Source of the DNA: Bryum argenteum | Taxonomy: Eukaryota; Streptophyta; Bryopsida; Bryales; Bryaceae | Length of the DNA: 64,000 bases | Reading direction: 5' to 3' | NCBI GenBank assembly: GCA_037043015.1 | Contig: CM073321.1 | Location: forward strand, 40,940,420-41,004,419 | Part shown: in pieces, positions 19,724-45,559 of the stretch | How positions within the stretch are numbered: position 1 is the stretch's first letter | Layout of the letters: every line of letters starts with the position of its first letter | The notes under the pieces: generated by a model | The model's input: only the letters and a program-made list of their open reading frames with translations | What the model was told of the DNA's origin: nothing | Database searches by the model: none | Program-made: the position numbers and the translations under genes

Positions 19724-20190
19724 AATGCCTTAAATCTCCTCATCTACATACGCTATATGTTAGTGCTATAAATGGGTGCTTCACATCGTATGTAATATTT
19801 TTTCACAACTTATTAAAAATAAGTATACGAGTACCTACATTCACAGCAAACCTTGCCAATTTGTCTAACTTGGAGTACTAATCACTTAGAAATATTACCT
19901 TAGAAACCTCTTGACATTTACAAATTGTGATTTACTGTCGAGTTTTGTAGCTCAAGTTCAACCAGATTCAGGGAATTTAAGCCATATTTCCACGGGTTTG
20001 GGTCACTAAACCCACAGTAATAAGTCTATAATATTCAAATATTCTTGCGAATATTCGAGAATTATTCCCTAATAAAATGTATTAAACTATTTTTAGAGTT
20101 ATTTTACTGAAAATACAAAATCAGCCCTAAAAATCAGAAATCTCACTGCTCACCGCTCATTGCTCACTGCTCAACGCTTACACGGTAGCA
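19724..20190. other. AT-rich spacer
   Basis: No gene is seen. Just before the minisatellite a short C/T-rich tandem (TCACTGCTCA variants, 20143-20178) occurs. Confidence 0.4.
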
Positions 20191-22080
20191 ACGTCCAGCA
20201 AGGGAGCGAGCGATCAAGGGAGCGAGTGAGAGAGCCAGAGATCGAAGGAGCAAGCGAGAGAGGGAGAGAGCAAGGGAGCGAGCCAGCGAGGGAGCGAGCC
20301 AGCAAGGGAGCGAGCGGGAGAGCGAGCAAGAGAGCGAGGGAGAGAGTAAAGGAGAGAGCAAGCAAGAGAGCGAGGGAGAGAGCAAGGGAGGGAGCGAGCG
20401 AGCGAGAGAGCGAGCGAGAGAGTAAAGGAGAGAGCAAGCAAGAGAGCGAGGGAGAGAGCAAGGGAGGGAGCGAGCGAGCGAGAGAGCGAGCGAGACAACG
20501 AGCGAGACAACGAGCGAGACAACGAGCGAGACAACGAGCGAGACAACGAGCGAGACAACGAGCGAGACAACGAGCGAGACAACGAGCGAGACAACGAGCG
20601 AGACAACGAGCGAGACAACGAGCGAGACAACGAGCGAGACAACGAGCGAGACAACGAGCGAGACAACGAGCGAGACAACGAGCGAGACAACGAGCGAGAC
20701 AACGAGCGAGACAACGAGCGAGACAACGAGCGAGACAACGAGCGAGACAACGAGCGAGACAACGAGCGAGACAACGAGCGAGACAACGAGCGAGACAACG
20801 AGCGAGACAACGAGCGAGACAACGAGCGAGACAACGAGCGAGACAACGAGCGAGACAACGAGCGAGACAACGAGCGAGACAACGAGCGAGACAACGAGCG
20901 AGACAACGAGCGAGACAACGAGCGAGACAACGAGCGAGACAACGAGCGAGAGAGAGCAAGCGAGACAACGAGCGAGAGAGAGCAAGCGAGACAACGAGCG
21001 AGAGAGAGCAAGCGAGACAACGAGCGAGAGAGGTGGCGTGCGAGGGAGCGAAGGAGAGAGCAAGCAAGGGAGCAAGTGAGCGAGGGAGCGAGTGAGCGAG
21101 GTAGAGAGCAAGCGAGGGAGCAAGTGAGCGAGGGAGCAAGCGAGTGAGCGAGGGAGCAAGCGAGTGAGCGAGGGAGCAAGCGAGTGAGCGAGGGAGCAAG
21201 CGAGTGAGCGAGGGAGCAAGCGAGTGAGCGAGGGAGCAAGCGAGTGAGCGAGGGAGCAAGCGAGTGAGCGAGGGAGCAAGCGAGTGAGCGAGGGAGCAAG
21301 CGAGTGAGCGAGGGAGCAAGCGAGTGAGCGAGGGAGCAAGCGAGGGAGCAAGCGAGTGAGCGAGGGAGCAAGCGAGTGAGCGAGGGAGCAAGCGAGTGAG
21401 CGAGGGAGCAAGCGAGTGAGCGAGGGAGCAAGCGAGTGAGCGAGGGAGCAAGCGAGGGAACAAGCGAGTGAGCGAGGGAGTGAGCGAGTGCGCGAGGGAG
21501 TGAGCGAGGGAGCAAGCGAGCGATGGAGCGAGGGAGCGAGCGATGGAGCAAGCGAGGAAGCGAGCCAGGGAGCAAGCAAGGGAGGGAGTGAGAGAGGGAG
21601 CCAGCAAACGAGGGTTGGAGCGAGTGAGGGAGGGAGTGAGCGAGCAAGCAAGTAAGCAAGCGGGGGAACAAGTATGGGAGCGAGCCAGCAAGGGAGCCCG
21701 CGAAGGAGCCAGCGAGGGAGCCCGCAAACGAGGGTTGGAGCGAGTGAGGGAGGGAGTGAGCAAGGAAAGGAGCGAGAGAGCAAGGAAATGTGCGAGAGAG
21801 CAAGAAAAGGAGCAAGCAAGAGAAGGAGGAAGGGAGCAAGTGAACGAGGGAGCGAGTGAGGGAGGGAGCAAGTGAACGAGGGAGCGAGTGAGGGAGGGAG
21901 CAAGTGAACGAGGGAGCAAGTGAACGTGGGAGCGAGTGAGGGAGGGTGCGAGTGAGTGAGGGAGAGAGCGAGGGAGTAAAGGAGGGAGCGTGTGAGGGAG
22001 GGAGGAAGAAAGGGAGGGAGGAAGTGAAGGAGGGAGGAAGAGAGGGTGTGAGGGAGAGAGCGAGGGAGAGAGGGAAGACT
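20190..22080 (+). repeat. Purine-strand minisatellite, about 1.9 kb
   Basis: The plus strand is almost free of T and consists of G, A and C in GAGC-type words. Three blocks are clear. About 38 perfect copies of GAGACAACGAGC lie at 20492-20950. Three copies of a roughly 28-bp higher unit with GAGAGAGAGCAAGC follow to about 21030. About 16 to 18 copies of a 20-bp unit GAGCAAGCGAGTGAGCGAGG lie at 21100-21530. Flanks are degenerate to 22080. The very long open frames in all directions are by-products of the missing stop words. Confidence 0.97.
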
Positions 22081-23700
22081 CCTTGGAGAAGTATACAAAT
22101 GTTAACCTAAACTAAGTTGCAAATACAAGATTGGATTTGGTGATCTAATCTACTCTAGTTTGTCCCCGTCCTCCTTCTGGATTGGAGGGGAGAAAGTAGA
22201 GAAATTTGGAGTGGTTGGAAACAAGGACTAAGTTCGCTAACCAATTGAGTGGATATTGATGGTTGCACTTCACAGGATCTTCGAGGAACAAGTAATGGGT
22301 TTGTTCTTCGGAACAAGCCTTGCAAATAGTAAGATAGGGCTATCCGTGGAAGAATCAAGTGGAGGAGTTACGATAGTCTATATCCTTAATGCTCCCTTTT
22401 TCACTCAAATGGACTAGGAGTCTTACATGACTCAATCTAATAACACTTAATCTACGCTTGACATAGCTATACATGATAGCATGTCTATGCACACCGTCTT
22501 ACATGATCCCAGTTTCTTCGAGTCCTCATGTCTATCTAATCCCTGGCCGGAACATTACATTCCGACAATCGTCGTAAGCCATGTGGGTGGAGCAACAATA
22601 GCATCATCGAGGGGATTCCTCTTTCAATGTTGTAAAAAGAAATTTCCCCTTCCGCACTCAAGTGACTAGTTCAAGTGCACTTAGCTACTGAGATCTATAA
22701 TGCAATAGAATCTACGCTTCTACTAAGTTGAAAGTTGATGAAGGCGACAAATTCATCACGATCCACTCTAAAGAGTTTCTAATAAGGCTCCTCTTGATTG
22801 AAGAGTGCTAGAAAGAGCAAGTAAGAAAAATTCCAAGTAATTGTTGGCCCCATTAGTGATAGTACAAACCAATAGTTAGGCTCATATGCCTCCCACATTG
22901 CTAGAGTTGATGTGTTGTTAGTTGGCTAGCGGTGGCCAACCACTACACCATTATGGCAACCCTTTTCAATATATAAACCAGGATATGCACCTTAACTCTC
23001 TAGTTATCAGGTTGTTTGCTTGCCTAAACGGTGCATTAGGCCGGAATCCGATCTCTCCATAACCTTCAGTAAGAACGAACTCTTTTCTCCAACTTGGAGG
23101 TTTTCTGTTGAGTTTTACTTCAAATAAAACGAGGCGGTCCTCGATTGAGGAGTATTAAGGTAAGACATGAACTTAGGAACTTCTTAATCCATTCTTGTCA
23201 CTAGAGTTCATCTACAATTAAAATAAAAATTGGAAATCCTAGAGCTAATCTCGAGTTCGTCCATAGTTTCACATAAAGACTGATAATATTTATATAAGTC
23301 TCAACCAACCAAGTTAGTAGTGTGAATTAATGGAAGTTACATAAGTATATGAGGGTTATCCATGGATAATAAGAGGACTCTTTCGTTTCATTTTTCTCTC
23401 CTCTCAACAAGCATAAAGAACTAAAATGACATGATCAATAACAACAACCTTTGAAGCATGTAATAAAACTCCAGAATACGAAGTGAAAGTGGCTCAGTGA
23501 AATGAAACATGGAGGATTCCGAAGTACAAAGAGCTGCGACGATAAAACGTGCAACATGTGGCAAATGAGTGAATTACCAAAATAACTAAGAATTGAATCA
23601 AAAAAATTCTTGTCAGCGCCACAAAACTCACTCCACAAACTTCTACATGCAACGTAGCCACTTTGACGAGATTGAGGTTGTAGGCTCCTCTAAGATACAA
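22081..23700. other. No recognisable gene
   Basis: I see only short open frames without family features. No repeats of note were found. Confidence 0.4.
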
Positions 23701-28095: not shown

Positions 28096-30079
28096 AATGC
28101 TTCTAAATTTAGAGGTTAAACACTAAGGGGAAAGAATTCACGTTTGATCAATAAGAAAAGAGTGCATTGTTATCTTAAGTAGTAAGTTCTTGAAGCAAAT
28201 ATGAACAAAGTTTTTGTTAAAGAAGACAAATGCCGGTCGTTAGAAGGAATTTTCCTGAAAATCTCTGCCACATTCTTGTGCGAGTAAACGGTCCGTGCAA
28301 TTTTGATCTACTTTATTTCTTGGAGGTCATGAAGATACCAATATCTGATGTCCACATGTTTTGTCTCATTGGTTCCGATGTACGCAAATTGCAGTTGGGA
28401 CCCAATCAGACAAAACATGCAAGTATTTAGAGCCAATTACATAATAGCTCCAACTGCTGCCAAATATGGCGTCTTTGATAAAAGAATTTCTTCATTGTGT
28501 TTGATGGAATGGTACACTCTGAACCTTTGATGTTGAACCACTATTTATGTACTTAGTGCATGAGCTTGTGACAATGAAAAATGCTCTACTACACAACAAG
28601 TATATGTTGTTTTCACTTTCTTTCAAGATAGAAACACCATTGCGAATCCAATACCAAGAATAGTTGGATCAAAAACCTTTCAACTAAATAGTTGTTAGCC
28701 TTTATCTCAAAATCTTGACTCTATTAGAAAATGATTATCATCACATATTTTTAATCTTCCCTAGTTGCTTGACAATGGTAAAACATGCCTTATATTTGAA
28801 AACTCAAAAACACGAGCTAGTTTTACTAAATCTAGCCATTTCTTTATACTTCATTGAATGAGTTTGGTGGCAATCCCCAAAATTTAAGCCTTGTTGTCTT
28901 GTGTGGGTTTAAATTCTATATAAAAATCCTTAGTTTGTCATTATAGACGATTTGCAAAAAAACTCTTGCTATAGGAGAATAGGTGTCTTCAGCCTTGGAA
29001 AAAATAGCATAGAGATTTCTCTCAGAGACTACACTTGGGGTGCCTAGTCTATCATAGATTTTTGACTAGGTAAATAAATAGTCCCATTTCTGTCTAAAAA
29101 ATAATGTCTATACCACTCTAATGAATAAATGAATAAAGCCCGGAGGCCTACTAGAGTTTACCATACAATCAAGACTTGATTTTAGACCCAAACCAAGTAA
29201 TTATATCTAAAACGGACTCCAGATGAACAAATAATGGCTCTTCAGAGTTGCTGCAATTATCTGAAATGTGGATTTTTGACATTCCACCTGGTTAATGGTT
29301 AATTAGATTCCATATGAGTTTTCTTTTATATCGTATGAAGTTGCACCTTTTTGCATGATGTAGACTTTTATCATAACATTTTAGCAATACCATTTTTCAT
29401 GCTTCAAAATTCTTTGTGCCTTAGGAGATATTTTCTCCATAGCTCATAGATTTAATTGGTACATGCTGGTATTTACCCAAAATGGCAGTATATTCTCAAA
29501 ATTTGCCCTATAACAACTAGACTGCAAAATGTTGAGAATCTACTAAAGATTGAGACTTTAGACTTTAGTTTTATTTGATTTCTTCTACAACGTTCTCACG
29601 GCGTTGCCATGCCTACTTAATACTTTGATCATGCCCCCCTTGTATTTCTCCGAGATCTAAAATCGGATCATTTTTGTAATAGGACAATTTTTTTTTTAAT
29701 GGCATTTTCTTCTATGAAAATTGGCCTTTGAATTTGGATTTCCGCATACCTGGCTTTGAAAATCAATAATTTCTTTGCGTATCATAGGTCATGTGAGTGT
29801 GACATACTCTTGAGAATCAACTAAAACAACGGTTAAAGAGTCCCAAGTCATATTAGCGGCTTATGATAGTTTATCCTTCAAAACCACACTTTCTTATCCG
29901 ATCACAAGAAAAAAGATTTTTTTGTTTTTTCTTTTTTTTTGTTTTTTTTCAAATTCTGATCTCACCTTATTTCATGTCATCATGATATGAATCTTATAAT
30001 TGGCGTAGATATACATGTACAAGTAAGGTATTAGATCTTATGGTTATATACTTTAAAATACTTCAAAGATAATACATTG
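28096..30079. other. AT-rich DNA with dispersed repeat copy B
   Basis: Positions 28620-29290 are the second copy of the repeat described at 24280-25050. The rest is AT-rich with homopolymer runs (29690-29950) and no gene that I can support. ATTG at 30076-30079 is the left target duplication of the central element. Confidence 0.6.
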
Positions 30080-30105
30080 AACGGATATTTAACTAATTAT
30101 GGACA
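30080..30105 (+). repeat. Left terminal inverted repeat of the central element
   Basis: 26 bp; 25 of 26 positions pair with 45530-45555. Similarity stops abruptly on the inner side, and outside it the only match is the ATTG duplication. Confidence 0.9.
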
Positions 30106-30311
30106 GATTCCGAACTTATGGATAATTTCACTAAAAAAATAAGTATCAAAATGTATGCCAGATTAATAAATAATAGAAGACCAAGCAAGATATATTGATA
30201 CTCAAGCAAGATATATTGAAAAGTGCATGTAAAGTAATAAAACTATCTAAATTACCCAAAAAAAAAAACTATTGAAATTATATCGGCTAAAGGCCAATAC
30301 AAGGAAAATTG

Positions 30312-30365
30312 CTAAATCCTAAATCCTAAACCCTAAACCCTAGACCCTAAACCCTAAATCCTAGA
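30312..30365 (+). repeat. Interstitial plant-type telomere repeat
   Basis: About seven units of CCCTAAA or one-base variants (CCTAAATCCTAAACCCTAAA), followed by degenerate CTAGACCGTAGACCGTAG. It lies about 210 bp inside the left end of the central element. It supports a green-plant origin, since (CCCTAAA)n is the Arabidopsis-type telomere. Confidence 0.9.
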
Positions 30366-31352
30366 CCGTAGACCGTAGATCCCGTCCCCAACCCACATTA
30401 GCTGAAATGCTGTATCGGACGGCCGCCGATAGAAGCCCCTGGAATATGACGAAGTAGTAGTAACAAATTATTGGATCTCAGCTCAGAAACGGAATTCTAA
30501 AGGTTGCACACGCATTCATACACAGATCAATTTAATATGATTGAGAGGAATACAGTAATATAATGTCATGAATAGCAAAATCCAATATCGGCCGCCAGTC
30601 GAGAAACGCGAGAATAATGAAAGAAGAGGAGTACATTGTAAGTGTACATTACAATGATTGCTACAGTAAAGACAAAGTAGGATATACTGTATCGGAAAGC
30701 TATAGGAAGCTAAGACACGTATCAGCCGCCAGCCGAGAAACAGTAAACTAGAGAAATGGAGGGAGCACAACAAAGCAACCAATGAACGCTACATTCTCAA
30801 AAACGATGAATATACCGCAATCAAAAGTCGTGGATAGCTAAGTCCGGTATCGGCCGCCAGCCAAGAAAATGTAAACAAGAGTAATGGCATGAGAAGAGCA
30901 AATGTGAAAAAAGAGCTCTAGCATATTGATAATGAACAGTATGCCGTAGCAAAAATACAACAAGTACATAGAGACTATAGACATGGAACACACTAGTAAG
31001 GTGAGGCGGATATGAACCAGCGGGTAGAGCGTCGTGTCGGCTGGCAGCCGATAGGAGGTCGGAGTTGCTGGTGCGAAAGCATATGAGTGATGATAAGTAT
31101 CGGCCAGCAGCCGACAAGTGCAGAGCAGGTCCGTCATAGAGTGGGAGGATGCGAGGGAGGCTCACATGAAGCGTGTCGGCCGGAAGCTGATACAAATGTA
31201 TGCAGAACACCTTAGAGAACAGCTCCAGCGGCCTCAAGGTTAGACATTGCAGCTGCAGCGGCCTGCTCGGGAATGATATGTGTAGCTGGTGGACCTTTCC
31301 TTGCATGTGACGGCATCCTATGAGAGAACAGAACAATGTTCACATTCACAAT

Positions 31353-34300
31353 CTAAGTAAGACAAGGCTCCTTATGCCAGCCGCGAGTCCAGCACTCTCT
31401 AGCGATGATCGATTTTCCTTCCTTCTTAGCTCGCATAGGGGTCCACCATTTGATCTTGAAATTGCCATAGGTAGGACCAGGCGTCAGATCAACACACTCA
31501 AGGACACGCCCCAGCCAGACAGGAAGGAAATGGTCGTCGCTGTGGCGGCATAAGACAAAGTCTCCAAGAAGAACATCACGGAATGGATTAAAGTTGAGCC
31601 TCGGTCGGTCTTTAGCAGGACCATAGTAAGGATAAGCATTTGCATCATCCTCAGGCGTAATGTCCTGTGAGTGAGAGGAGCTAGATCCAGAATCGAGCGA
31701 GGCACGAGAATGATCACGAGTCCAGTCTGAAATAGACCAAAATCCTTCCACAAGAATGTAAGGGGTAGACGGTAATGGTGAATTGATCTCCCGGTTGATA
31801 CCCTCCCAGTAGCCAACAGGTCCAGCCATCTCTTCGCAGTAATGTCTATTACGCGCCATACCGGTCTTCCAGAACTCAATGAATATAGAAATATCGTACT
31901 TGATGAAACCCTGTTTGTCATTGCACTCCGAGGCATGAGCTTGCTCCTTCACAGAGTTCAACTTGTTGGGGTTAACCTCCGTGACGCCCCATAATGGCTT
32001 AAATGGAACAGGACGTGGGTCGCCATGTGGAATTCTAGGTCTCCCTTGCTCGTCAGAAGTCCACATCTTGACGGGGGGACCGGGTGGGAGCCATGAAGAA
32101 TCAATCAATTTCCTCTTATACCTCATGACAGGCCAGCCACGATCGTCACCGTCCTCTTCGACCCAGAACTTGAAAAGATGCATGTCACCAAGTCCAACAA
32201 TTTTGTTGACATCGTCGTGATGAAAGTCCTGGACGTAGGATTTGAAATCCGCAACCTCTTGAACGAATTCAGAAATGAAGGCGACTGTCTTCTGCGAGTC
32301 CATGAAAGCCTTCATGAGATTGCCTAGAACGTACGTGTTCTTCCGCTTCATGAGCTTGGAAAGGTAACTGAAATGGGCATCAATATCCTCGTGAGTGTGG
32401 CCAACAATCAGGAACCCAACATTGACCTCCTTGAATATGCGCCGAGCGGTCAGCAAAGAGCAGAAGGCCATCACAAATCTGTTCTTGTTGTCCTTTGCGA
32501 AATTATCAAGCTGCAAGAATAGCTTACGCGGAAGCGGAACAAGCGGGCGTCCAGGTTCTGAAGGACCGAACTGAGTCCCGATGGCGGGTGGGATAGATGC
32601 GAAACACCTAGACTTTCCATGTAGCAAAGCTTGGAAGAAGCTCTTTTGTGGAGGTGTGGGAAAGAGCTCCCGAGATTCACGTACCGGTGGCTTCTCAAGC
32701 GCTCGCACTACACGACACAAGGAAGAGATTGTGAAGTTGGAATCCCCTGGCGAGAGCACAGTGGAGTAGTGTGCGTACGCACCATCACCGTGGCAGTGAG
32801 TCAACATGCTGGTAATAGAAACCGGAATCTGTCCAAGGCCAGCAGTGGCTTTTGTAATCCTCTGCATTCTGGGAATGGCCGTCTTCGTGGTTTCCATCTT
32901 GTCATGGATTATACATAGAAACTCCGAGGGGTTCTCGCAGGACTGGGAACTATAGCCACCATAAATATGGCGGCAGGCACGCTGGTAGTTGAGATGGCGA
33001 TTCCGGTCATCGACTAATGCATGCCACTCATCACAGCCCCTTGGGTACTTGGATATGCACTCCACAAGGAAGTCACACTCAGTACACTTAGAGAAGCTGC
33101 TCCCAACAGCTGTAACCTCGACGTTCTTGAAGTGGTTCTTTCGAAGCTGACTGATGGTGGACTGGGAGACCGGCTTATGGTGGCATTTGATATTCACCTG
33201 GAAGGCGGATATAAGGAAGGATGTTAACATCCTGGTCGACGCCTCCTATCGGCCGGCAGCCGACAGGAGTGCACTGACATAAGCAGGAACTAATCGCTAA
33301 CGGAGTATCGGCTACCAGCCAACAAGTAGCTCAACGACGACTAGATAAGCCACGACGGAAATGACAGTAGAAGGAAAAGAAGAATTGTCTAATTAGAAAC
33401 ATCCGAAACATAGCAACCAAGTGTATCGGCCGGCAGCCGACATCGAGGACGAAGAGGAAATAAGAATGATTGGGACTTACTTGATTCACTTGCTTGCGCA
33501 TGGTGTCCCAGTTGAGAGCAGATGGAACAACCTTCAGATTGTCAACTCGCTTATTTCCAACAAGCCTGAACTCGTTAGGCATCTGGTCTGCATTCTCGTC
33601 AATAATCTTCTGCAGGGTTGCTCTGGCCTGAATTGTATGCGGGCGTGGACGGACAGCTCCAGAATTGCCATGCGATCCGCTCACTGATCCACCCATTGCT
33701 GCAGCCTTGTAGACGTGGTAAGCTGATCTGGAAACAACGTGAATGATATACCAAGCGTTCTCGCAGACCTCAACATTCTCAAGCGTGATGAATTTCCTCC
33801 CTCTCGGTTCATGTACATGAATTTGACTTTGAACGGCATACGCTGTCTCTCTTCTAATTTCAAAAGAGCAAGCATAGTACTTACGACGAAGGATTCGAGT
33901 AGACTCCCACGGAAACGTCTGACAGCACCTACTCTTGCAGCACAGCTGAGAGCTAACCTTGCGAATCTCATCATCCGAGGTCTTTGATTTAAACCTAGAC
34001 CCAGCGGGCTGCTCCTTTGACAAAAGTCTACGACGAACGGACCTGTAGGGATTCCGAGGGACGCTCCGAAGTCCCGGATGTTCAAAGGTAGAATTCTGAG
34101 CGGCCTCAGAGCAGAGCATGACAATGTCTGACAGGAGTTGACCGCCTTCAAGTCGAGTCCGCGAAAGAGGCCATCTCATTGTCGTGAGCTCTAGGGTATC
34201 GTGCTCTGAAATGAACATTACTCCAACATCTGTACCGCCAAGAAGGTCCTCATCACAGGCTTCATTTGGAAGACAGACTTGAATGATCGCCTGCCCAAAA

Positions 34301-35199
34301 AAGGTAAGATCCTCATTCAGTAGGTCGCAGCACTTATTCCTCCAGTCGGGCGGATCTAGGACTGTCAAAGGTTCCGGCCGCAAATCTTCAGTTTCGCGTG
34401 AGATAGAAGGGCGAAAGTTGATAGCGTTATCGCCGCCAGAACTATCCGAAGAGGGCTGCGAGAAGATACCGTTGTCAAACGGCGTAGCATGAAGATCATC
34501 AGCAGATTCATTTCCTTGAGAAGAGAGGACATCGACGCGGGTTGACGGATTTCTACCCGACCCACAGTCGTCGCTGCCATCAAAATGAGAATGCGCGGTT
34601 GAATGATGCGGGTTATCTGTACTACCACAACAGTCAGTAGAGGGTGAGTCCTTGGCACCGTCATCGCTGTGCGGTTCAACCTTGACACTCCTCAGCGTGG
34701 GTTGTATCGGCTGCCGGCCGATAGAGTTGCCATTCAGCGGCGTAGCGTCGAGGGGACGAATTTTGTAACCGCTCCAAAGGATTTCATATCCAAGGCACTC
34801 ACCAAGCAGAGTGAGAGAAGGATTCTCACAGTACGCTACCAGACCAACAAAGTCCTTATACACCGTAGTGAGCTTGACAACTACAAAGAAGCTATGGGGA
34901 ACGCGAAAACCCTCCCAGGTGCCCTTAGGCGAGCACTCAACGATGACACCCACTCCAACAAAGTGATGATCGGTCCCGTCAACATGCAGTAGAGCAACCT
35001 CCATGTTAACAGAGAGAGTGAGAAACTGATTTATGGGCTTCTCATCTAGTGGCCCCGGTGTCGGCTGGCAGCCGATAGACTCGGATGATTCATCGAGGTT
35101 ATCAATGAAGGGTCTCACGTCTTTCACCTCCCATGTAATGTTGTTACCAGGACACTGACTAAAAAACTTTATGCTAGGAGTGGGAAACGGAATGATCAT
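31353..35199 (-). CDS. DUF7869-type transposon protein, two exons, intact
   Basis: Exon 1 (35199-33481) and exon 2 (33197-31353) join in phase 0 into 1187 residues without a stop. The first half is variable and acidic. In exon 2 a Cys-rich patch (KCTECDFLVECI, then C near RGCDEWH) is followed by LCIIHDKMETTKTAIPRM, HCHGDGAYAHYS, FLQLDNFAKDNKNRFVMAFC and VGFLIVGHTHEDIDAHF. The last two blocks are the hallmark of the DUF7869 family, common in plant, oomycete and animal repeat-derived proteins. The Asp, Asn and His-Glu-Asp residues look like an RNase-H-like metal site, which is inference. Two copies of the 19-bp palindrome lie inside exon 1 (34705, 35059), read as SIGRQP and SIGCQP, and three in the 283-bp intron. 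The start at 35199 is the first Met of the open frame; earlier exons are possible. This intact gene is the best transposase candidate for the element. Confidence 0.85.
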
Positions 35200-36660
35200 C
35201 TCAATATTTGGAGCGACGTCAAGAACGTGGACGTCTAAAAGATCTATTGGCGGCCAGCCGACACAACTGCGAATCTAAAAGGTTGACGAGATGAAAGAAA
35301 TAATATGGACCTGAGACAGGTGTAATAGATACAACCTCCTGAGGTATCGGCTGCCGGCCGATACCTTGTACTGCGAAACCCGGAAGACAGGACAGACAAT
35401 GAGGGACGCGTGATAGTTCTGTATCGGCTGGCGGCCGACAGCCCAATCAACAATATCGACTGGCAGCCGATATAAAGAGATCCGACTAATTCCTAAGGAA
35501 TTGTATCGGCTAGTGTCATGCACTATGTCAGCTGGCGTCTAGTACCAGGGTATTGAGCCTCTAGCTATTAAATCGTTATAATTGAAGTAATAAAATGCTG
35601 CTATCTACCGCTCTCTATATAGAAAGAAGCGCACTAACACGGGGAACACAATGACGCAATTCTTGACTACTTCTGGCCAGGGAAAACAACAAAAACAGCA
35701 ATGCAAATCGCTCAGAGCGTCAGGAAACAATGGAGAAATGAAATAAAATGTCAGAAACAGTTGGGAGAGGGTAGCCATCTGAAACACTACAGCGTGGATG
35801 GCGCTCAAATCAAGAAGATTTCAAACTCAAATTTCAAATGATTTTGAAGTTTTGGAGGGCTAATTGCTAGGCAGGATGAAAAGCAATGATGAAATTGATG
35901 AAAAAATTTGAAATGACGTTTTGGCGGGGCGAGCTTCAGAAAAATTTGGCGGGCGGGCAAGCGGATGCGAGAGCGGGCAAGCCGATTGAAAAGCGGGCAA
36001 GGCGCAAATCGGCGGGCAGCCGATAGCCATCATTGCGAAAATTCCGGAGGGGGTAAACCTTTCACCCTCCCTCATTTGCTCTCATTTGTAATTTGCTCTC
36101 CTCTCCTCTCTCAGTTTTGCTCTCTCCTCTCACTTTTGCTCTCTCCTCTCTTCTCTCATTTTCATTTCTCTCCTCCTCTCATTTGCTACTTGCTCTCTCC
36201 TCTCTCCTTTCTTGCTGTCTTCTCTCCCCTCTCCATCCTTGCTCTCTCCTTTCCTCTCTGCTTTCTTGCCTTAGCCGTTACTCTGCTGGCAGCTGATAAT
36301 GTTTAGTTTTGGGGTTTAGGGTTTCTAGCAGCAGCCGACAGAGGTTACGTAGCAGCCGACAGAGGTGACGTAGCAGCCGACATTCCCTACGCTCCAGCCG
36401 AGAGCTTTGCGCGGGAGCGGAGGCAGCAACCGACATTCCTTACGCACCAGCCGACAACTTTGCGCAGGAGCGGAGGCGATTTACGCACCAGTCGACATCG
36501 AACACTCGCCAGCCGATACAGCTCCGATGGCGTCGTCGAAGACGTAAGCCGATTTAGCTCTTTGTGACGTTTCAATTTGTGCCGTTTTGATTGGCGTCGT
36601 TTCATTTTCAGCTCTTCGTGATCTTCTTGTGCCTTGTGTGTCGGCTGACTGCGAGCCAAA
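35200..36660. other. Divergent spacer with palindromes and CT-rich tract
   Basis: Five full palindromes lie at 35245-36025 and several half palindromes at 36284-36520. A CT-rich low-complexity tract spans about 36076-36275; its long open frames are artefacts. A start-like ATGGCGTCGTCGAAGAC followed by a GTAAGC donor lies at 36528, which could be a first coding exon of the plus-strand gene, but its phase does not fit the exon at 38506 directly. Both genes of the element point away from here, so promoters are expected. Confidence 0.4.
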
Positions 36661-36779
36661 AAACCACCATGGAGTGGCCTTTGGTCACAAGAGGATTGAC
36701 ATGAACAACACATGAAGAGAGGAACAAGGGAGAAGAGAAGACGAGTACAAATGAAGAAGAAACAAGGGGAAGTAAAGAA

Positions 36780-37325
36780 GAAAACCCCCGCCGGCCTCGT
36801 TTTAACCCTCTTCCGGTTTTTGGCTTGCCATTGCTTCATCTTAGCTCCGATTTGGGCGTGCCATAGCTTTTTGGAAAGCTAAGTCAATCTTGCACTCACC
36901 TCCCAAATCTTAGAAGCATAGGATCAAAACCCGAGGACTGATGGCCAAAATACTGGGGCCTACTTCTTTTAACCGCCGGCGGGAAAACCCTTCAACACCC
37001 CCAACTTTGGAGGGGTGTTTCTCCCTCTCTAAAGATCGGATTGGGGCATACCATATACCCCTTGAAAGCTCTTTTGGAGCTCTATCTATCCTAGAAATCT
37101 CAATAGCATAGGAAAAAAAACTCCGTGACTGATTACTGTTTGAACACTGCTGATTTATTCACTGCCGGGGGGAAACCGTTTTCGACACCCCGACTTTGGG
37201 AGCAAATTTCTCCCTCTCTACGACTCAGATTTCAGCATGCTTACTACCGTTGGAAAGCTCTACTTACAAGCTACCTACTTCAAAAATCTCAATCAATTTG
37301 AAGAATAATTGAGCGACTGATGAGG
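36780..37325 (+). repeat. Three diverged tandem units of about 175 bp
   Basis: Each unit begins with a CCGCCGGCGGG-like word and contains TTTCTCCCTCTCTA, GGAAAGCTC or GAAAGCTCT, and ends with CGTGACTGAT or GCGACTGAT. Units lie near 36785-36945, 36965-37135 and 37150-37322. Further short duplications follow (GGCCCATGGCCT at 37376 and 37548; CACTAGGG-GAATTTTTC at 37915 and 37970). No palindrome of the element occurs in 36660-38220, so this may be a later non-autonomous insertion. Confidence 0.65.
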
Positions 37326-38505
37326 GAAAGACCAAGAGACATTTGATGGGGATTGAGAGAATTCAGTGAAAGGGGCCCATGGCCTCCTTCTTCTAGCAAC
37401 AACTAAGCAATTCACGAAGAAATCAAAAGAAACAAAATTGAGAGGGAGGTCCACCTGCCTCCCTACTCCTACTCTAACTAAACATTACTAAGAAGAAGAG
37501 GTAGACAAACAAGATATGAGACAAATAAGATGGAGGAGAAGGAGGCCCATGGCCTTCCTTCTCCTACTCTAACTAGATTGAGTGGGTCATGATAGCTTGA
37601 GAATAAGCTATTAAGTACAAAATGAGAGCCGCCAAAGAGGCGGCTCACCCTAAAGCCTAACCAAGGCCTAAGCCCTAACTAAAGCCTCCATGGATGAATA
37701 ACCGCCACTCCACGCGCTCCGTCCTTGAAGCCTCTATTCCATCAACCACTTCATCAATGAATGTAGCCTCACATGCTACCATAAGGTTAGATGGATGAGA
37801 CTTACAACAATAAAATTTCAAACACAACATGACATCAAAAACTAGTTGTACAAAGCCCATGGTAAAACGCTCAATTCTAATTTAAGCAATTAACCCTATT
37901 TCTAATTTAGGATTCACTAGGGAGAATTTTTCTTCCTCTAGTTCTTCTCCATCATCAATTCGATCCACTAGGGGGAATTTTTCCTCCTCTAGTCCTTCCA
38001 CACCCTAAAGCTTAAATTAGTCTTAAACGTCCTATGAAAGGCCTTGCAACAACTAACCCCTAATATACAAATTGCATTCAAAACTAAATCATTGTATATT
38101 CATCAATTTACCTCAAGATGTCATGGTTTGCAAACACTTCATTAATAAAAGTCTTTATTAACAACATTTAAACAAGAGAGCGCTCTCACGCTCTCACACT
38201 GACAACCGAGAGCTCTCAAGCTTTCGTCTGGCAGCCGATAGCTCTCAAGCTGTAGCTACTTACCTTAAAATGCTTCGTGTATCGGCTGGCAGCCGATAGC
38301 ATGCTATTTAGAATAGGTCATTAGATTATCACCGTAAATAATGCATGTCAGCACAGATGAATCATGCATTCGGACGCCAGCCTTGACTATTGTCGCTATC
38401 GGCTGGCAGCCGATACCATGGTTGCTATCGGCTGGCAGCTGATAAGATATGCATAGTGTATCAGCTGGCGTTTACTAATATACACTCACATGACTTTTTC
38501 TGCAG

Positions 38506-41500
38506 AAACCACCAGTCCTAGCTAGACTGCTAGGTGTTGAGCTTGCACACACGGAAGTCAAACATGGAGACATCGTCCCACGTGCAGTATGGGCGGCTAA
38601 TCCAGCCATCGAGCAATGGGGACTATGCTGGAGGGTCCTCCCCAGCCAACGAATTGAGATTGCTTGTTCATACATGCTCAAGGGTAATATGATCCCTGGG
38701 TTTGGTGATGTGCTAGAAATTGCGGAGAATGTGGAGCATGTCGATGTTCTTATAAGCCTTCCAGCCCTGAAGGATCCCTCCGCCCCGACCGACTACATTG
38801 CCGTATCACTGCCGTGGGCAAAATGCACTCAGGCGGTTTGCGGAGAGCCGACGATTCAGCAGGGCATGACCTTCAACGGAACTACGCCTGCGACCTTGGA
38901 GAAGTTCGTGGACGCGTCGTCCGCTATAAATTACGCTAGGTTGGCCATAAACGACGCCCTCAATGCAGCAGCGGCTACGATACCATCGTCGTCGAAGAGG
39001 AAGCCAACTCCTTCAAAGAAGAAGCGACCTGCAGCAGAGATGGTTGATCTTGGCGATGACGACGATGACAACGTCCAGAGGTCACAAGATCCCAGCAAGC
39101 CCAAGAGACGGGCGAAGTCGTCTAAGGATGTCATCGAGTATACACTAGACGAGGCCTTGACTAAGGGCAACCAAATGACATCAAAGATGAAGGACGTCGA
39201 GATCGATGCTATTTACAAGGCATTGGAGACTAGTCTAGGTCACCTGTTCCTCTACAAGAAGCGGAGGCTGCCGGGGGTTATTCCTAGCGAGAAGCTGCAC
39301 ATCGCTCCGGACGAGCTCAAGTACAGACGCATCGCGAAAGAGCGTCTGGGCCAGGTATTATGTTTTTCTCACCTTCTCTTATGAGGTACTGCTTTATGTA
39401 GTGGCTGGCAGCCGATACATCTGCTGTTCATCTTTGATTCATGATTGTTCATGTATTCTGTGTTCTTCGCAGGTGAAGGCCATCTACAAGGGCTACGAGG
39501 CGATTCGGAAGAAGCCTGAGATCCATGGAATCCCTGAAACGGGAGCCACTTGCCACCGATAGCGGGATGATGGCTGTCATGGATTCGATGCCAGGGGAGT
39601 TGGATATGTGGAAGGTTAACGTCACAGACCCCAACACCGCCCCAAAAATTCCGTGGTGGCAACATCCTACTGTCCACTGGTATATCATCGGCGGTCAGCA
39701 TACAGTGACAGCCTGCCGCGAGTTGGCGGACGAGTACCCCGAAGGATCGGAAGCCAAGAAGGAGCTTCTCGAATACGAGATTATCCCAGTGTTCTCGAGG
39801 GACCCCACCGATCTTGTGAGGGTATCAAACGCCCTGAACCTAAATATTGCAGGGAAGGTCGCCAATGAGTCCTTTCGATCATGCGCGGTGCTCGGGAGGG
39901 CAGCATGGAAGCGACTTGGGTGTCCTGAGCCACACAAGGGAGGCGGGAAGCCGTCACCGGCCTTCGAGGTAACGTTACCCTCTGCCATTCCTATCGGCCG
40001 GCAGCCGACACATTGCATCTATCTCTACCTATCGGCTGCCAGCCGACAGTCGTTCTTCTTGCCTTCATTCATTTAAATATGTGTCGTTGTTCTTCAAGGT
40101 GCAAAGGCGCAAGTCATGGCGCACTTTGTGAACGAGAAGGTGTCTTCCAAGCTTTCCTTGGTATTCGTCGGTGACAAGGCCTGGAATACGTGGATCGAGG
40201 TCTTCAATGCCTGGGAAGCCGGTGAGCTAATTGGGGACGACGGCAAGGAGCCGGGACTGATCAAGCGGTCTCCTATCACGAACATCACAAAGACTGACCT
40301 TGTCCCGACATTGGGTCTCCGTGACTGCGACCTTGAAGAGCTTGCAGCGGAGGTCATTGCGAATCGCGTTTGCATAAAGTCTAACAGCACGACGTAGGAC
40401 AGACTCACACTGCCGGACTGGTGCCGCGACAAGAAGCTCGACCGGGTCATTATGAACGAGCTTCTTTATCAGCTGAAGAGGTTTCCGCTTCCCTGCAAGG
40501 ATGCGAACTGGTCGCCATACCCAGATGCTGAGTGGGACAAGTTGGCGAAGGAGCACCATTTCACTCCGAGTGTCCTGCGCAACATCTGGACCGACCTCAA
40601 GAAATACACGGACGTGAATGAGTGGCTAAATGGTCGCGCGAGCGCAATGAATCCGACGACGGACAAGTCGAAGAACGGGGTTGCGCCGCCCATATTCAGC
40701 ACTATCCTGCAGACATATTCGCACGTCTAGGTCACGACGGAGGAGGTTGATGCCGAGAAGGCTTATTTCGACTGCAAATTCGCGGACACAATTGCTGATG
40801 TCGTGCAGGAGATCGACGCAGCTGTTGGCCATGTTGGCATTGAGAAGGACCCACTCCTTATCGTCTACTTCGGTACAGTGTTGGCGGAGTCTCGGTCCCA
40901 ACGAGTAGAGCGGATCTTCGTGCGCTCGCAGATCGTACGAAGGTCCCACTCACGGATGACGACCTCGCGATGGACGATGACAACGTGGCTCCGACACAGC
41001 CGCTTTACCCTATCCCGATGTTGTTCATAACGAGCGCGAAGCAACGGGATCTTCTTTCCGCTGTCTGGACAACGGAAGATACTGAATGGTATGTTCAGAC
41101 AGTGTATTACAAGCCGTGTCTTTGGGGGGGGGTTTCAAGAAGACGGTGACAGAATCTTCGCCGCTTGTTACGCTCAACATTACGTACCCAAAGGTACGCG
41201 GGGATGATGATTGGTGGACGACATTCAGGAAGTACACTGGAATCGTTAAGCCAGTCGGTTGGTTCTAGGCTTCTCCTGAAGGTGCTGTCGATTGGAATGG
41301 AGGATTCTGCGGTGTCGGCCATGAGACGCTCGAGAAGTTCCTCAAGCCTACTCTCACAGCAAAGAAGGTCACCGTCATCAACGTCTGAGGTGGCGGAAAT
41401 GTCACCGAGCTTGGATTGGTAAGGCATCCTCTCCTTTGCTTTGTATCGGCTGCCAGCCGACACCTTCTGATATTGGTTTACTTTACCTTATTTGTTATCT

Positions 41501-43698
41501 AGTACTTGTTTTGTTTCCCATGGATCGCGGCTGCCAGCCGACATTGTCTTACTCTTGTTCATGGTCTTGCAGAAACATGGGAGGTCCGTGATCGAGTTTG
41601 TCAGGAGTCAGGAGCATGTCAAGTTAGCAGTCCAACGTGCGAAGGGACTCAACCTCGATAGGGTCGAGCTTCCACCGTCGTCTTCCGAGGATATAGAGAC
41701 CGATGCTGGTCCCTCAGTTTCGCCCCGGGAGCCTGTAAACCCTGGACGGCGTCCCGCCTCTGGTGTTACGATTCAGGATCTGGTAGAGGAGATAGATCTT
41801 ACTCCAATGTCTCTCACACCTGCTACCACGCCCACGGCTCCCCCTGTATCGACTGCCACGCTCATCGCTCCGCCTGTATGGGCTGCCGGCCGACACAATG
41901 TCACCGTGTCAGCACCGGCTCCTGATACTAGAGGAGATCTGCCTTCCTCTGCTGGGACCACGATGCAGCTTGATTTGCAACATCCCCCGGAGGACGAGGT
42001 GATCGTTGTTGAGCAGGTGCCACCGTCTCGTCGCCCTCAGAGGCCTTCCCAGTCCGTTCCTGCCCCTATCGGCCGGCAGCCGACAACCCTGGCTTCTTCC
42101 TCTAGGGAACTTCAGAGGGCTCAATCGTCAATGAAGGCGTTTTATACTCATAGGGAAGACGCAGTTGATTCGGCGGCCCCTTTGGAGGATGACGCCTACG
42201 ACATTAACGCCACAAACGAGGAGGCTCTCCAGGAGGACGACGTATACGACATCAGCGCCCCGAACGAGGCGGCCCTTGTGGATGACAGCGTATACGCCAT
42301 CGACGCCCTGAACGAGGCTCTGTCTCCAGCTGCGTCGGATCATGCTTCCCCGCAGCAACAACAATTTCCTGAAGGTTTGTCCTAGACGACGGTGTTTCTT
42401 GTATATAGTCTCTTTTCACCATTGCATCAGCATATTAGGTTCTAGAATGGTTCTGCTATATGAGTTTCCTGGTTGCAACGTGCTCGGCGAGTTCGTTCCC
42501 TTGAACAACTGTATCGGCTGCCAGCCGACTGCCTATTATCGTTTCACGTTTTTGCCTTTATCCCTTGTCTCCTCTGTAGAGTTCTCTCAACCGTGTTCTC
42601 ACGACTTATCGGCTCCCAGCCGAGAAGTCGTTATGTCATTTTTTTGCACTATTCCTCTCCCTTTCATCATGGAGTTGGATCTTATGTGTTTTTACTCTCA
42701 CCATTCTCACCTTCTGTGATTCGTCTCATTCACATTGTGTGATTTGTTGGGTTGGCCATCTGTCGGCTGCCAGCCGACAGATGTTCCCTTGTCGGCTGCC
42801 AGCTAATACACTCTCAGCCCAGTAGTCTTTAGCCACACTCCTCTGCCTTGCTCTTACCTCACTCTGTTGCATACTTCTTGCTGCTCTTTCGCTTATTGTA
42901 CAAATGCTCTAATCTCATGTAGAGATAGGTGATTCTATGAACGAGGAGTTCGTGGACTCCGCTTCTCATGGATCGCAGCCGGGCACCTCCATTGCGACTC
43001 ATCTCTCACCTCGAGGGCAGGTAGCCCCGCTTAAATATTTTATTCTCTTCGACGTGAATGGCACTCTCATTCACTTCGTTCCTCGTAGGATCGTTCCCGG
43101 TGGGGATTGTCCCCGTTGGTTGAAGCAGGAGGCAAGGACAAGACCTGGCCTTGCGGAGTTAATAACCTTTTGCATTGATGCAAGGTTTGAAATTTGTTTC
43201 TGGACTTCCGTCATTCAGAAGAACCTTACTCCGAGGATTGAATTTATTCGGACCATTTGTCCCAATCTCCCTAAGGACTGCTTGGAGTTTGATCAGAGAT
43301 ATTGTTTCCGGAGTTGCTACCGGGAGCCTCATAATCCTGACCGGCCCTTCTTTCTAAAGTCAATTGCTCATCTCTTGGAAATGATCCCTCAGCTGGTTGG
43401 TCGTGGTGCCAATCCCGATAACATGCTTCTCATTGACGACTCCCCCTACAAGAACGTTCTGAACAACCCGTTCAATGCGTTCCACCCCTCCACCTGCACT
43501 ATGACCTCGGAGCAGAATTTGAGTGGGAAGCCTTACTTTCAGAGGATTTTGCAGCCTCTATTGTTCCAACTCTATTCCTCCGGAAAAACTTTTCCTCAGT
43601 TTTTTGAGGAGCACCCAAGGTTAGGACAACACCGTATGTTCCCGTCTCATCCGCTGTACGAGAAGTACAAGAAGATTGATTTTGGAAGGAAGAAGTAA
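38506..43698 (+). pseudogene. ParB-like / DNA-methylase-like / FCP1-phosphatase fusion gene, lightly decayed
   Basis: Five exons: 38506-39354, 39473-39968, 40107-41418, 41573-42374 and 42923-43698. Exon 1 is basic, with a Lys/Asp-rich stretch. Exon 2 has WYIIGGQHTVTACREL, a ParB/DGQHR-like box. Exon 3 ends KVTVINV-stop-GGGNVTELGL and splices to KHGRSVIEFVRSQEHVKLAV, like the C-terminal SAM-binding end of N6/N4 DNA methylases. No DPPY-type motif was seen. Exon 4 is acidic, with three 15-residue repeats (DDAYDINATNEEA type, about 42180-42325), and carries palindromes at 41877 and 42067. Exon 5 is an FCP1/NIF-type HAD phosphatase: FDVNGTL, WTS and LLIDDSPYKN, with the second motif-I Asp replaced by Asn. 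A one-base excess near 39524, stops at 40395, 40728, 41266 and near 41390, and shifts near 40935 and 41125 break exons 2-3. Earlier exons are likely. Exons 1, 4 and 5 are open. Confidence 0.6.
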
Positions 43699-44289
43699 TC
43701 ATAAATTGATTACTCCTCGTCCTCTTTTTTTGCCTACGAGGTATTCAAGATGTTGGAGCAAGTTCAAGAGGCTCCAGTTGTCGGCTGCCGGCCGATACAC
43801 CTCTTGTTAGCCTACATAGAATACCATCTTAGTACATGTCTTTAGCGTGGGTGTATAGATTTTGTTATCATCGTATTTGATGATCTAGGGATCTAGAATT
43901 TATAGATCACTTAGATTTTCTTCTAGTTCCGTAAATTTTCTAGGGTTCAACTCCAGACTTTTTCTTAATTGTATATTATGAGGATGTTTAATATGCGAAG
44001 AATCTCTTTATCTCAACATGTAGAATTTTCTACCATATTCCCTTTCTTGGTATTGGTTCTTATATTTGGTGTTTTCTGATTTTTTTCTGTTTAGCTTAGG
44101 GATCCATGGCTTCTTCTTGTCATTGTTTCGTTGATGTTTCTACTCATGGACTGTCTAGTTTGTTTTCTTCTCCTGTCAGCTGCCATCCGACACCTCAATG
44201 TTTATATTGTTTTTGTCTTCTTGACGGCTGCCGGCCGATACGCCTGCCCTTATCATTCTATTGCTGTGAATGGCATTTCTATCCTTCGA
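43699..44289. other. Spacer between the phosphatase-like genes
   Basis: Three palindromes (43779, 44174, 44222) and AT-rich sequence. No other feature was seen. Confidence 0.4.
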
Positions 44290-44975
44290 TCTGACTTATT
44301 TTAGGCTTGTACCGTTCAGGGTGACTGCCGTTTCGATTATGACATTGCTGGTACTTCTTCCTCCAAGAAGTGTATCATTCTATGCGTATCTGGATTGCTA
44401 TGCTACATCAACCCCAATATTCCGACGGATCGTTGGGATGCTCACCGTAATGTTATCAAGCGGCCAGGTCTAACGAAGTTATTTGCCATGTTGTTGGAGC
44501 GCTTCCATGTTGGTCTCTGGTGTACGATGCCGATCCGTGACTTGACGGCTCTCCTATCTTACATTCTACCTTCTGGCGTCATGGACAGGCTATCGTTTGT
44601 TTTTGGTAGAGAATATTGTGATCGTCCTATGAATTTTTGTGGTGTTACAAGCTCCTGAAGACTCTCTATTGCAAGCGTCGTTCCCGTGAGGTGTGCAGGC
44701 CCGACCAACTTCTCCTCGTTGGTGTTTCTCCACTGGCGTTAAGGTTGGCGCCGGATGCTACGTGCTACATGCCTTATCCTTTTCGAGGTGATTTGACGTC
44801 TTCAAGTACTACTATTCCGAATGTAGCTATAGATATCCTTCCGTTCATCTACCCCTTATACCAGTTCGAATCTGTTAGTGAATATATGAGTCTTTCCAAT
44901 AGACCGGGTCAACTTCATTATGAAGTTGCTCATTTCCTCAAGAACGGTGTTCCTCTTAGATTGGAGTGTTCGTAG
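44290..44975 (+). pseudogene. Second FCP1/NIF-like phosphatase copy without catalytic residues
   Basis: Two frames, about 44290-44658 and 44637-44975, align with the phosphatase end of the gene upstream. RPGLTKLFAMLLERFHVGLW matches RPGLAELITFCIDARFEICF. LLLVGVSPLALRLAP matches LLIDDSPYKNVLNNP. ILPFIYPLYQFESVSEYMSL matches the C-terminal ILQPLLFQLYSSGKTFPQFF. The nucleophile motif (FDVNGTL upstream) is here ILCVSGLL and the DDSP motif is GVSP, so the catalytic acids are gone. A frame change lies near 44640, unless an intron explains it. It is an ancient tandem duplicate, given the low identity. It could be an unrecognised pseudophosphatase exon of the same gene; no splice link was proven. Confidence 0.55.
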
Positions 44976-45529
44976 GTTTTACTTATTCTGCATGCCTATC
45001 GGCTGCGAGCCGACACTTCAAGCGATGAGCCGGTGCAGCACAACCTGCGATGAGCCGATCAGCACTCGCACTCGTCGACTTGTCGCAGTCGGTCTTCAAA
45101 TCGAGATTTGCCAAGGAATTATATCCTGGATTGTTGAACATGGAGCGCCAGAAAGGAGGAAGCCGATGATGGAGTCGCGTTGCTGCTTATCGGCTGCGAG
45201 CCGACACCACTGCAGTTCACCTATGTTATATTTATGTTCTGCTTCAATACTTGGTGCTGGTGTATATTGTATAGGGTGTTGTAATATTTATTGATGCGAA
45301 GTTAGTGCAGTCGGTTGCGCGCCGATACCACATGCTAGTGGGTCGAGCTTCGTTTGGAATATTCGTTTATTCTTTTAATGAAATGAATTTGTTTCCTACT
45401 CTAACAGTGTATTCATCTTTGATTTCTGCGAAATGCTAATATATTCAATCATTTTGTTTTTTTGCCTTGCTTTGTTTGCGCCTTTGAGGTGTGTCGGACG
45501 GAAGCCGATTGATTTCTGGACTTTCAAAT

Positions 45530-45555
45530 TGTCCATAATTAGTTAAATACCCGTT
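45530..45555 (-). repeat. Right terminal inverted repeat of the central element
   Basis: 26 bp, pairs with 30080-30105 with one mismatch and is followed at once by ATTG. The last palindrome of the array ends only 20 bp inside it. Confidence 0.9.
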
Positions 45556-45559
45556 ATTG

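Follow-up and report, generated by a model that had tools for sequence, protein, structure and literature searches.

What kind of element can occupy 15.5 kb of a moss genome between two matching ends, by what means does it move, and why is one palindrome repeated throughout its non-coding DNA? The locus lies in Bryum argenteum, at positions 30080 to 45555 of a stretch of 64,000 nucleotides from contig CM073321.1 (assembly GCA_037043015.1, positions 40,940,420 to 41,004,419 of the forward strand), which is called the window throughout. An earlier note, made from the letters of this stretch alone, had taken the segment for a DNA transposon of apparently undescribed type. Our analysis identifies it as one copy of a family of cut-and-paste DNA transposons with terminal inverted repeats (TIRs), apparently from an undescribed superfamily with an unusual self-marking design, as judged from Pfam profiles and the literature. 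The palindromes, whose function the earlier note did not address, are the most unusual part of the element. On balance we favour the reading that this is an autonomous-type transposon of a DUF7869 lineage, whose palindromes would be bound by a protein of its own, perhaps as a means against silencing.

Ends, target duplications and copies

The features which define the two ends, taken from the end searches and, for the duplications, from the flanks of copies, are as follows.

30076-30079: target site duplication ATTG, left copy
30080-30105, plus strand: left terminal inverted repeat, 26 bp, AACGGA-type
45530-45555, minus strand: right terminal inverted repeat, 26 bp, AACGGG-type
45556-45559: target site duplication ATTG, right copy

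The two 26-bp ends are 96% (25/26) complementary in inverted orientation and ATTG flanks both of them, just as had been described. The match had also been held unlikely to arise by chance, and the genome bears this out: with at most two mismatches the bare end has 173 and 174 matches, 347 altogether, against 0 for the reversed control. For a longer query from the left end (221 bp), all of the best 40 among 124 candidates begin at base 1 of the proposed end; for the right end (220 bp), 38 of the best 40 among 142 candidates extend to the last base. The 4-bp target duplication is perfect in 23 of the 24 copies with both flanks inspected, and the remaining copy keeps 3 of 4 bases (AATC/AATT). This sample is not a random one, since 21 of the copies were paired by eye from the two lists of ends (about 26 pairs), one was added through its palindromes and two are short copies. 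By batch, 11 of 11 and 9 of 10 duplications are perfect, a subfamily C copy has TCAT, and the two short copies have ACGT and AAAA, the latter of which carries no information when taken alone. The duplications are AT-rich and of many different sequences, and the copies inspected, subfamily C included, have an AACGGA left end and an AACGGG right end with few single changes. The search which the earlier note had proposed therefore yields other loci with the same ends, different flanks and 4-bp duplications, and the flanks do not differ inside the ends. That the ends form a chance inverted repeat in a segmental duplication, or belong to a virus or other element, can be dismissed, as 347 ends, and perfect duplications around differently located insertions in 23 of 24 copies, rule out the former, and three scans of viral contigs with the element's proteins gave 78, 3 and 86 pattern matches with 0 confirmed relatives.

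Eleven copies, the one in the window and ten others, were read from end to end for comparison. Subfamily A comprises the window copy and five others (91.7-98.1% identical), and subfamily B comprises five copies which are 93.6-96.5% identical to each other and 86.0-89.3% to A. Subfamily C is known whole from one 14.5-kb copy, of which some parts can be aligned at about 70-80%; its two ends depart from the 26-bp repeat by 0 and 1 mismatch, and it is flanked by the TCAT noted above. The three subfamilies thus share the same ends despite saturated synonymous sites. Moreover, a 4382-bp copy with both ends and the AAAA flanks keeps the outer parts of subfamily C and has lost the middle, which makes it a classic internal-deletion derivative; the other short copy, of 5402 bp, is known from its ends only. 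Regarding size, 15.5 kb is correct for the window copy and not for the family norm, most copies being about 14 kb long, and about 1.3 kb of the window copy is extra. Two more features belong here.

36647-38282 (approximate): region in which the window copy exceeds the other aligned copies by about 1.3 kb (copy alignment)
30312-30381: CCCTAAA-rich telomere-like tract directly inside the left end, with 3 CCCTAAA here versus 18 in subfamily C

Within the 1.3 kb found in the window copy only, a 48-bp stretch is directly repeated (37911 and 37962). In addition, the family is enriched on contig C1, to which the window belongs: of the 40 left and 40 right ends listed, 12 and 21 respectively are on this contig, which makes up 17% of the genome (44.1 of 258.8 Mb); our guess is that this contig is perhaps repeat-rich or a sex chromosome.

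The DUF7869 gene and the place of the element among superfamilies

On the minus strand the element carries a gene laid out as follows.

31353-33252, minus strand: C-terminal exon of the putative transposase, a frame of 630 amino acids with DUF7869 and conserved D115, D247 and D287/D289 (Pfam, alignment)
33253-33480, minus strand: intron of the transposase gene, with a GTAAGT donor, an acceptor placed by eye and three palindromes (sequence)
33481-35240, minus strand: N-terminal exon region of the putative transposase, limits approximate, with two palindromes in frame (Physcomitrium and Ceratodon matches)

The open frame of 630 amino acids matches DUF7869 (PF25273) with an E-value of 7e-38 and 130.5 bits, the curated cut-off being 26. 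The adjacent upstream frame matches the N-terminal half of DUF7869 proteins, with 53% identity over 291 amino acids in Physcomitrium and 37% over 563 in Ceratodon, hence both frames belong to one spliced gene with its intron at about 33253-33480. What had been called an intact DUF7869 protein is indeed an open frame, yet it is only the C-terminal exon of this longer gene. Its nearest named relatives are moss proteins, and it belongs to the same Pfam family as the DUF7869 proteins of mosses and liverworts. Conservation was read from an alignment of the query with 100 of 120 listed relatives, 51 of which were also scanned against Pfam. Among these 101 proteins D115 is kept in 79 of 82, D247 in 95 of 97, D287 and D289 in 98 of 100 each, and E286 in 82 of 100; the spacing of D115, D247 and D287/289, together with hydrophobic runs before D115 and D247, looks like that of a DDE/D nuclease. 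The ratio of nonsynonymous to synonymous substitution rates (dN/dS) against subfamily C is 0.056 for the DUF7869 exon (613 codons) and 0.18 for part of the N-terminus, values which are rough because dS is saturated (1.65-3.05) and was not computable in 3 of the 9 between-subfamily comparisons. The literature searched has no paper on DUF7869, and the sources searched attach neither a function nor a transposon to the family. This protein is most probably the transposase of the element.

A serious alternative, although not the probable one, is that the protein belongs to a transposase superfamily already described, such as the CACTA/Chapaev group, and has diverged beyond recognition, the other genes having been captured from a host as passengers. 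Duplications of 4 bp occur in several known superfamilies, and Chapaev makes one, as here. Another DUF7869 family has an end starting with CACTC, and the TNP1/EN/SPM profile 'Transposase_23' matches 2 of the 51 relatives below threshold, in their N-terminal part (E 0.023). According to the accessible part of the source (PMC2836005), Ginger1 also shares the 4-bp duplication, which is CCGG or CCGT there, and it has TGTNR ends and an integrase-like transposase, whereas the ends here are AACGG and the duplications are varied and AT-rich. Elements of the CACTA/EnSpm-Chapaev-Transib group are likewise large, multi-gene plant elements, but they have CACTR ends and no similarity to their transposases was detectable here. 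In particular, the C(2)C and H(3-4)H which lie between the second and the last acidic residue in CACTA/Chapaev/Transib, as described in the accessible part of PMC12730594, were not seen in residues 247-289, either by eye or in column counts. Against Pfam, with E-values up to 10, no family other than DUF7869 was repeatedly matched by the 51 relatives; the comparison with superfamilies such as Sola, Academ, Kolobok, Zator and Dada was made through these Pfam profiles. Passengers are argued against by the second gene of the element, described below, which is under purifying selection across subfamilies. In the literature, searches on moss transposon superfamilies, on 4-bp duplications and on ParB with moss transposons returned nothing on this element. 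An undescribed type, as first supposed, is thus consistent with the Pfam and literature searches, though not proven by them.

The 19-bp palindrome and its candidate binder

30413-45510: domain of the dispersed 19-bp palindrome TRTCGGCYGNCRGCCGAYA, with 37 sites at up to two mismatches, 15 of them exact and 32 of the 37 in non-coding DNA, introns included

Allowing up to four mismatches raises the count within the element to 43 sites, compared with 0 in the window beyond it and 0.6 in shuffled element DNA; the ends do enclose the palindrome domain as had been reported. The other ten copies of subfamilies A and B hold 25-51 near sites each and 0 in their 400-bp flanks. Searched over the genome, again as the earlier note had suggested, the palindrome has 1408 exact sites (control 0); being a whole-genome count, this includes sites which need not all lie in the present family. 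The sites avoid coding DNA, since 32 of 37 are outside exons although exons, with limits drawn by hand, are 56% of the element (p 1.4e-7), and in subfamily C the same is true of 50 of 55. Subfamily C has 58 sites versus 39 in the window copy, 17 of them at aligned positions, and it also has arrays with 29-bp spacing; as the same motif recurs there over saturated synonymous divergence, the motif persists although individual sites come and go. When A is compared with B, non-coding columns within sites are slightly less divergent (0.119) than other non-coding columns (0.147), despite the CpGs in the sites, and some sites are missing from subfamily B as short clean gaps.

The palindrome also leaves a trace in database proteins, where translations of relatives run into the same intron. 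Palindrome-coded peptides near exon ends have 4 matches in 124 database proteins versus 0.13 in shuffles; in 35 relatives of the exon with a ParB-like motif (see below) there are 16 matches (13 proteins, one match inside the domain) versus 0.05, one of the three patterns being looser than in the former search. Physcomitrium and Ceratodon proteins have the peptides VGGPPI/IGGPPT and VGCPPT/VGGPPT at comparable places; the latter pair was first noticed by eye, without a shuffled control, and the codons behind GG-PP are ambiguous. It is suggested by these GG-PP peptides that the palindrome may have changed in both arms to a symmetric GG/CC variant, although the VGCPPT form of Ceratodon is not fully symmetric. 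At some sites in copies of subfamilies A and B the centre is rewritten between intact flanks (for example at window position 44222), namely at 5 of 204 and 10 of 140 site-copies, where the control windows show 26 such changes in 4080 and 71 in 2800. This roughly threefold excess may come from break repair or from base-calling or assembly error at palindromes and is not used as support. The palindromes are probably binding sites of a protein encoded by the element.

The first candidate for that protein comes from the second gene, on the plus strand and divergent from the DUF7869 gene, which is broken in the window copy and has long open frames in other copies.

38620-39381, plus strand: exon 1 of the second gene, without family match, limits approximate (frames in copies)
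39470-39985, plus strand: exon with the ParB-like motif WYIIGGQHT...REL, frame broken in the window copy and open in others (dN/dS 0.11)
40078-42385, plus strand: next exons of the second gene, with an intron near 41423-41519 that holds a palindrome, damaged in the window copy (dN/dS 0.22, first part)
42913-43698, plus strand: NIF (FCP/SCP-like phosphatase) domain 1, with DVNGT replacing the usual DxD (E 9e-7)
44305-44975, plus strand: NIF-like domain 2, with CVSG where a catalytic aspartate would be expected and an interrupted frame in the window copy (E 0.003, below the curated cut-off)

In the copy at C1:27.74 Mb the exons corresponding to 40078-42385 are open over 721 amino acids and the two NIF-like domains match with E 1.1e-5 and 0.0033. 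Measured against subfamily C as before, the ParB-like exon has a dN/dS of 0.11, the first part of the exons after it 0.22, and the NIF domains 0.17 and 0.14. Every part for which the ratio could be computed is under purifying selection, and this means that the gene is not a passenger. The second NIF-like domain has CVSG in both A and C and is under purifying selection nevertheless; it may be a pseudophosphatase. The earlier note had read the whole as a fusion of ParB, methylase and phosphatase, and each part has to be taken separately. For the phosphatase there are the two NIF-like domains, one of them without its catalytic aspartate. The methylase was rejected, as Pfam and NCBIfam gave no match and PHROG gave only a lone 'methyltransferase' at E 0.9 in 1 of 29 relatives of the ParB-like exon. 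As for ParB itself, the resemblance of WYIIGGQHT...REL to a ParB N-domain, seen by eye, is suggestive only. The alignment of the exon comprised the query and 28 of the 35 relatives; the PHROG ParB-like match is weak (E 0.14, in 4 of the 29 relatives), PDB had no match for the exon, and a tblastn search of phages gave a single irrelevant one (E 5). We give the ParB-like product somewhat less than an even chance of being the palindrome binder.

A second lineage offers a comparison. When prokaryote assemblies were searched by means of the DUF7869 alignment, nine loci (L081-L089) were left out of 55 pattern matches, all of them in cyanobacterial bins, where such plant-type contigs are probably host contamination. 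Eight of the nine are in one bin of an uncultured Trichormus (5.9 Mb), and because Trichormus lives in the fern Azolla, we take the contigs to be fern DNA and the second lineage to be probably a fern. Seven of these eight loci carry a palindrome of their own, TCGATRC...GYATCGA (17 bp), with 2-15 copies each and 38 in total (shuffles 0), arranged on some contigs in arrays with a spacing of about 51 bp; it has 0 sites in the window and 0 in 295 kb of loci from the genome of the window. The stricter pattern TCGATRCNNNGYATCGA has 39 sites (control 0) on eight contigs of the whole bin, and six of these contigs, with 34 of the 39 sites, are among the eight that carry DUF7869 (p 7e-11 with at least 447 contigs). 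Reading frames were listed for five of the nine loci, and in all five the DUF7869 open frame follows the sites at a distance of 0.4-1.2 kb. In L082, L086 and L088 a divergent frame of 299-439 amino acids runs across the palindromes; their proteins are 54-66% identical to the first, with Y(Y/F)VIGGSHS in the two printed out. A profile comparison of the partner proteins of the two lineages joins 28 columns around GG(Q/S)H with E 1.9e-4 and a probability of only 47%, and the partner of the second lineage has a weak match to DUF6551 (E 0.05). From their sequences, the two lineages appear to share one layout, in which DUF7869 and a divergent GG(Q/S)H gene have a palindrome peculiar to the lineage lying between or around them. 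As the palindrome that accompanies DUF7869 is another one in the second lineage, the motif and its binder apparently change in step with each other.

Among the other accounts of the palindromes, binding by the DUF7869 transposase itself fares best, though we hold it to be rather unlikely; the internal sites would then assemble a long element for transposition with no anti-silencing role. The subterminal TNPA sites of CACTA and the AAACGG sites of Ac are comparable internal transposase sites, DUF7869 accompanies palindromes in both lineages, and the arrays lie shortly before the DUF7869 frame in the five contigs with frames listed. However, the sites extend across the whole 15 kb and into introns with no clustering near the ends, the motif is absent from the 26-bp ends, and a putative ParB-type partner, of a class known to bind palindromes, is also encoded. 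Improbable is the suggestion that the palindromes are mobile or copy-spread repeats, neutral to the transposon. Their copy number does vary by subfamily, with tandem arrays at 29 bp and about 51 bp and with the clean gaps in subfamily B, but 0 of 43 window sites lie outside the element, the motif is kept across saturated divergence and depleted from coding exons, and a different motif behaves alike in another lineage. Still less probable, indeed very much so, is that they act as RNA hairpins in introns or untranslated regions of the element's transcripts: the majority of sites fall within introns or transcribed intergenic DNA and could form a stem of 7-8 bp, yet imperfect pairs on the sense strand are G-U in 189 cases versus A-C in 198, without overall bias, the trends are opposite in the minus-strand gene (126/75) and the plus-strand gene (63/123), and near-perfect symmetry with one central base suits the DNA site of a dimer better.

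Some results weigh against our preferred reading of a DUF7869 transposon whose own protein binds its palindromes. The earlier note had proposed a search for empty sites, and none was found in the one search made, with the joined flanks of one copy. A PDB search with the profile of the 101 DUF7869 proteins had no match, nor did Pfam for the ParB-like exon. In the second lineage, palindrome contigs C259 and C358 are without a DUF7869 match, and DUF7869 loci L081 and L087 are without a palindrome of either kind. The genome of the window itself has 1809 candidate places for DUF7869 (150 were scored, every listed one above the cut-off), among them a pair of 3.7-kb blocks with no visible TIR and two families which share one end with 17 genomic matches and no nearby inverted partner found; the palindrome motif is absent from these other loci. 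These families do not obviously have the anatomy described here, so a palindrome-bearing TIR element need not be the only vehicle of DUF7869. Among other DUF7869 families (L061-L070, L071, L072), one group ends in CACTCGATTCATTAAAAGTGCACGTG and another in CACCTGCTTCATTAAAAGTGCACGTG. Outside the element, at 20164-22111, the three minus-strand frames are simultaneously open for about 640 codons, which suggests an unusual repeat.

The mechanism that we propose has its observed basis in the ends, the duplications, the deletion derivative, the selection on the protein and the placement of the palindromes. The DUF7869 protein would recognise the AACGG... ends, excise the element and insert it with a 4-bp staggered cut, and these steps would presumably be catalysed by its acidic residues D115, D247 and D287/289, a triad placed as in RNase H. 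A dimeric protein encoded by the element, for which the ParB-like product is the foremost candidate, may bind the palindromes along the element and so coat or mark its own DNA. The likeliest benefit would be resistance to silencing, which would keep the element active as with VANC; that this is the purpose of the palindromes remains a tentative proposal, drawn by analogy and short of probable.

Known systems and the meaning of the element

VANDAL, a MULE-type element of Arabidopsis, is one close likeness. The accessible part of PMC5735166 describes the VANC motif as short, enriched in the non-coding DNA of its own elements, present in tandem repeats and different between families, and the accessible part of PMC10398659 reports that VANC proteins remove silent marks. 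Here, too, we find a multi-gene DNA transposon with a private motif in its own non-coding DNA, introns and upstream regions included, with tandem arrays and with variation of the motif by lineage. The differences are a DUF7869 transposase, a 26-bp TIR, a 4-bp duplication and a ParB/NIF-like second gene; the motif here is a 19-bp palindrome, whereas the VANDAL motif is not described as palindromic in the accessible part of PMC5735166. Furthermore, anti-silencing is demonstrated for VANC and drawn by analogy for this element. Among the proteins scanned Pfam gave no match to a MULE transposase or to VANC, the VANC sequence itself not being compared.

In bacterial ParB-parS, a protein of the ParB class binds palindromes. 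The likeness lies in a palindromic, element-specific site together with a gene product whose GG(Q/S)H motif resembles the ParB N-domain. The difference is that we deal with a eukaryotic transposon having dozens of sites per element and no significant ParB family match, and there is no ParA partner among the family matches obtained. DNA transposons with TET/JBP dioxygenase genes, which are thought to help them escape silencing (PMC12730594, accessible part), are alike in carrying a putative anti-silencing gene; the gene differs, as the proteins of this element have no dioxygenase match. A more far-reaching version of our reading, which we consider unlikely, would make DUF7869 a new superfamily of land plants in which a ParB-like, possibly sliding-clamp protein loads at the palindromes, spreads and shields the element from silencing. 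If true, this would be an analogue of ParB-parS in eukaryotes that has converged on the VANDAL/VANC design.

What the element means for plant transposons can be put at several levels. An uncharacterised and very abundant plant protein family becomes a testable transposase. At the same time we have a second, independent case of a transposon which seemingly labels its non-coding sequence by a motif peculiar to itself, and a comparison with VANDAL/VANC would reveal whether sequence-specific anti-silencing evolves repeatedly. The motif and its binder could serve as a tool against transgene silencing, and if the ParB-like partner holds true, a bacterial style of DNA-marking logic would operate in the transposons of plants.

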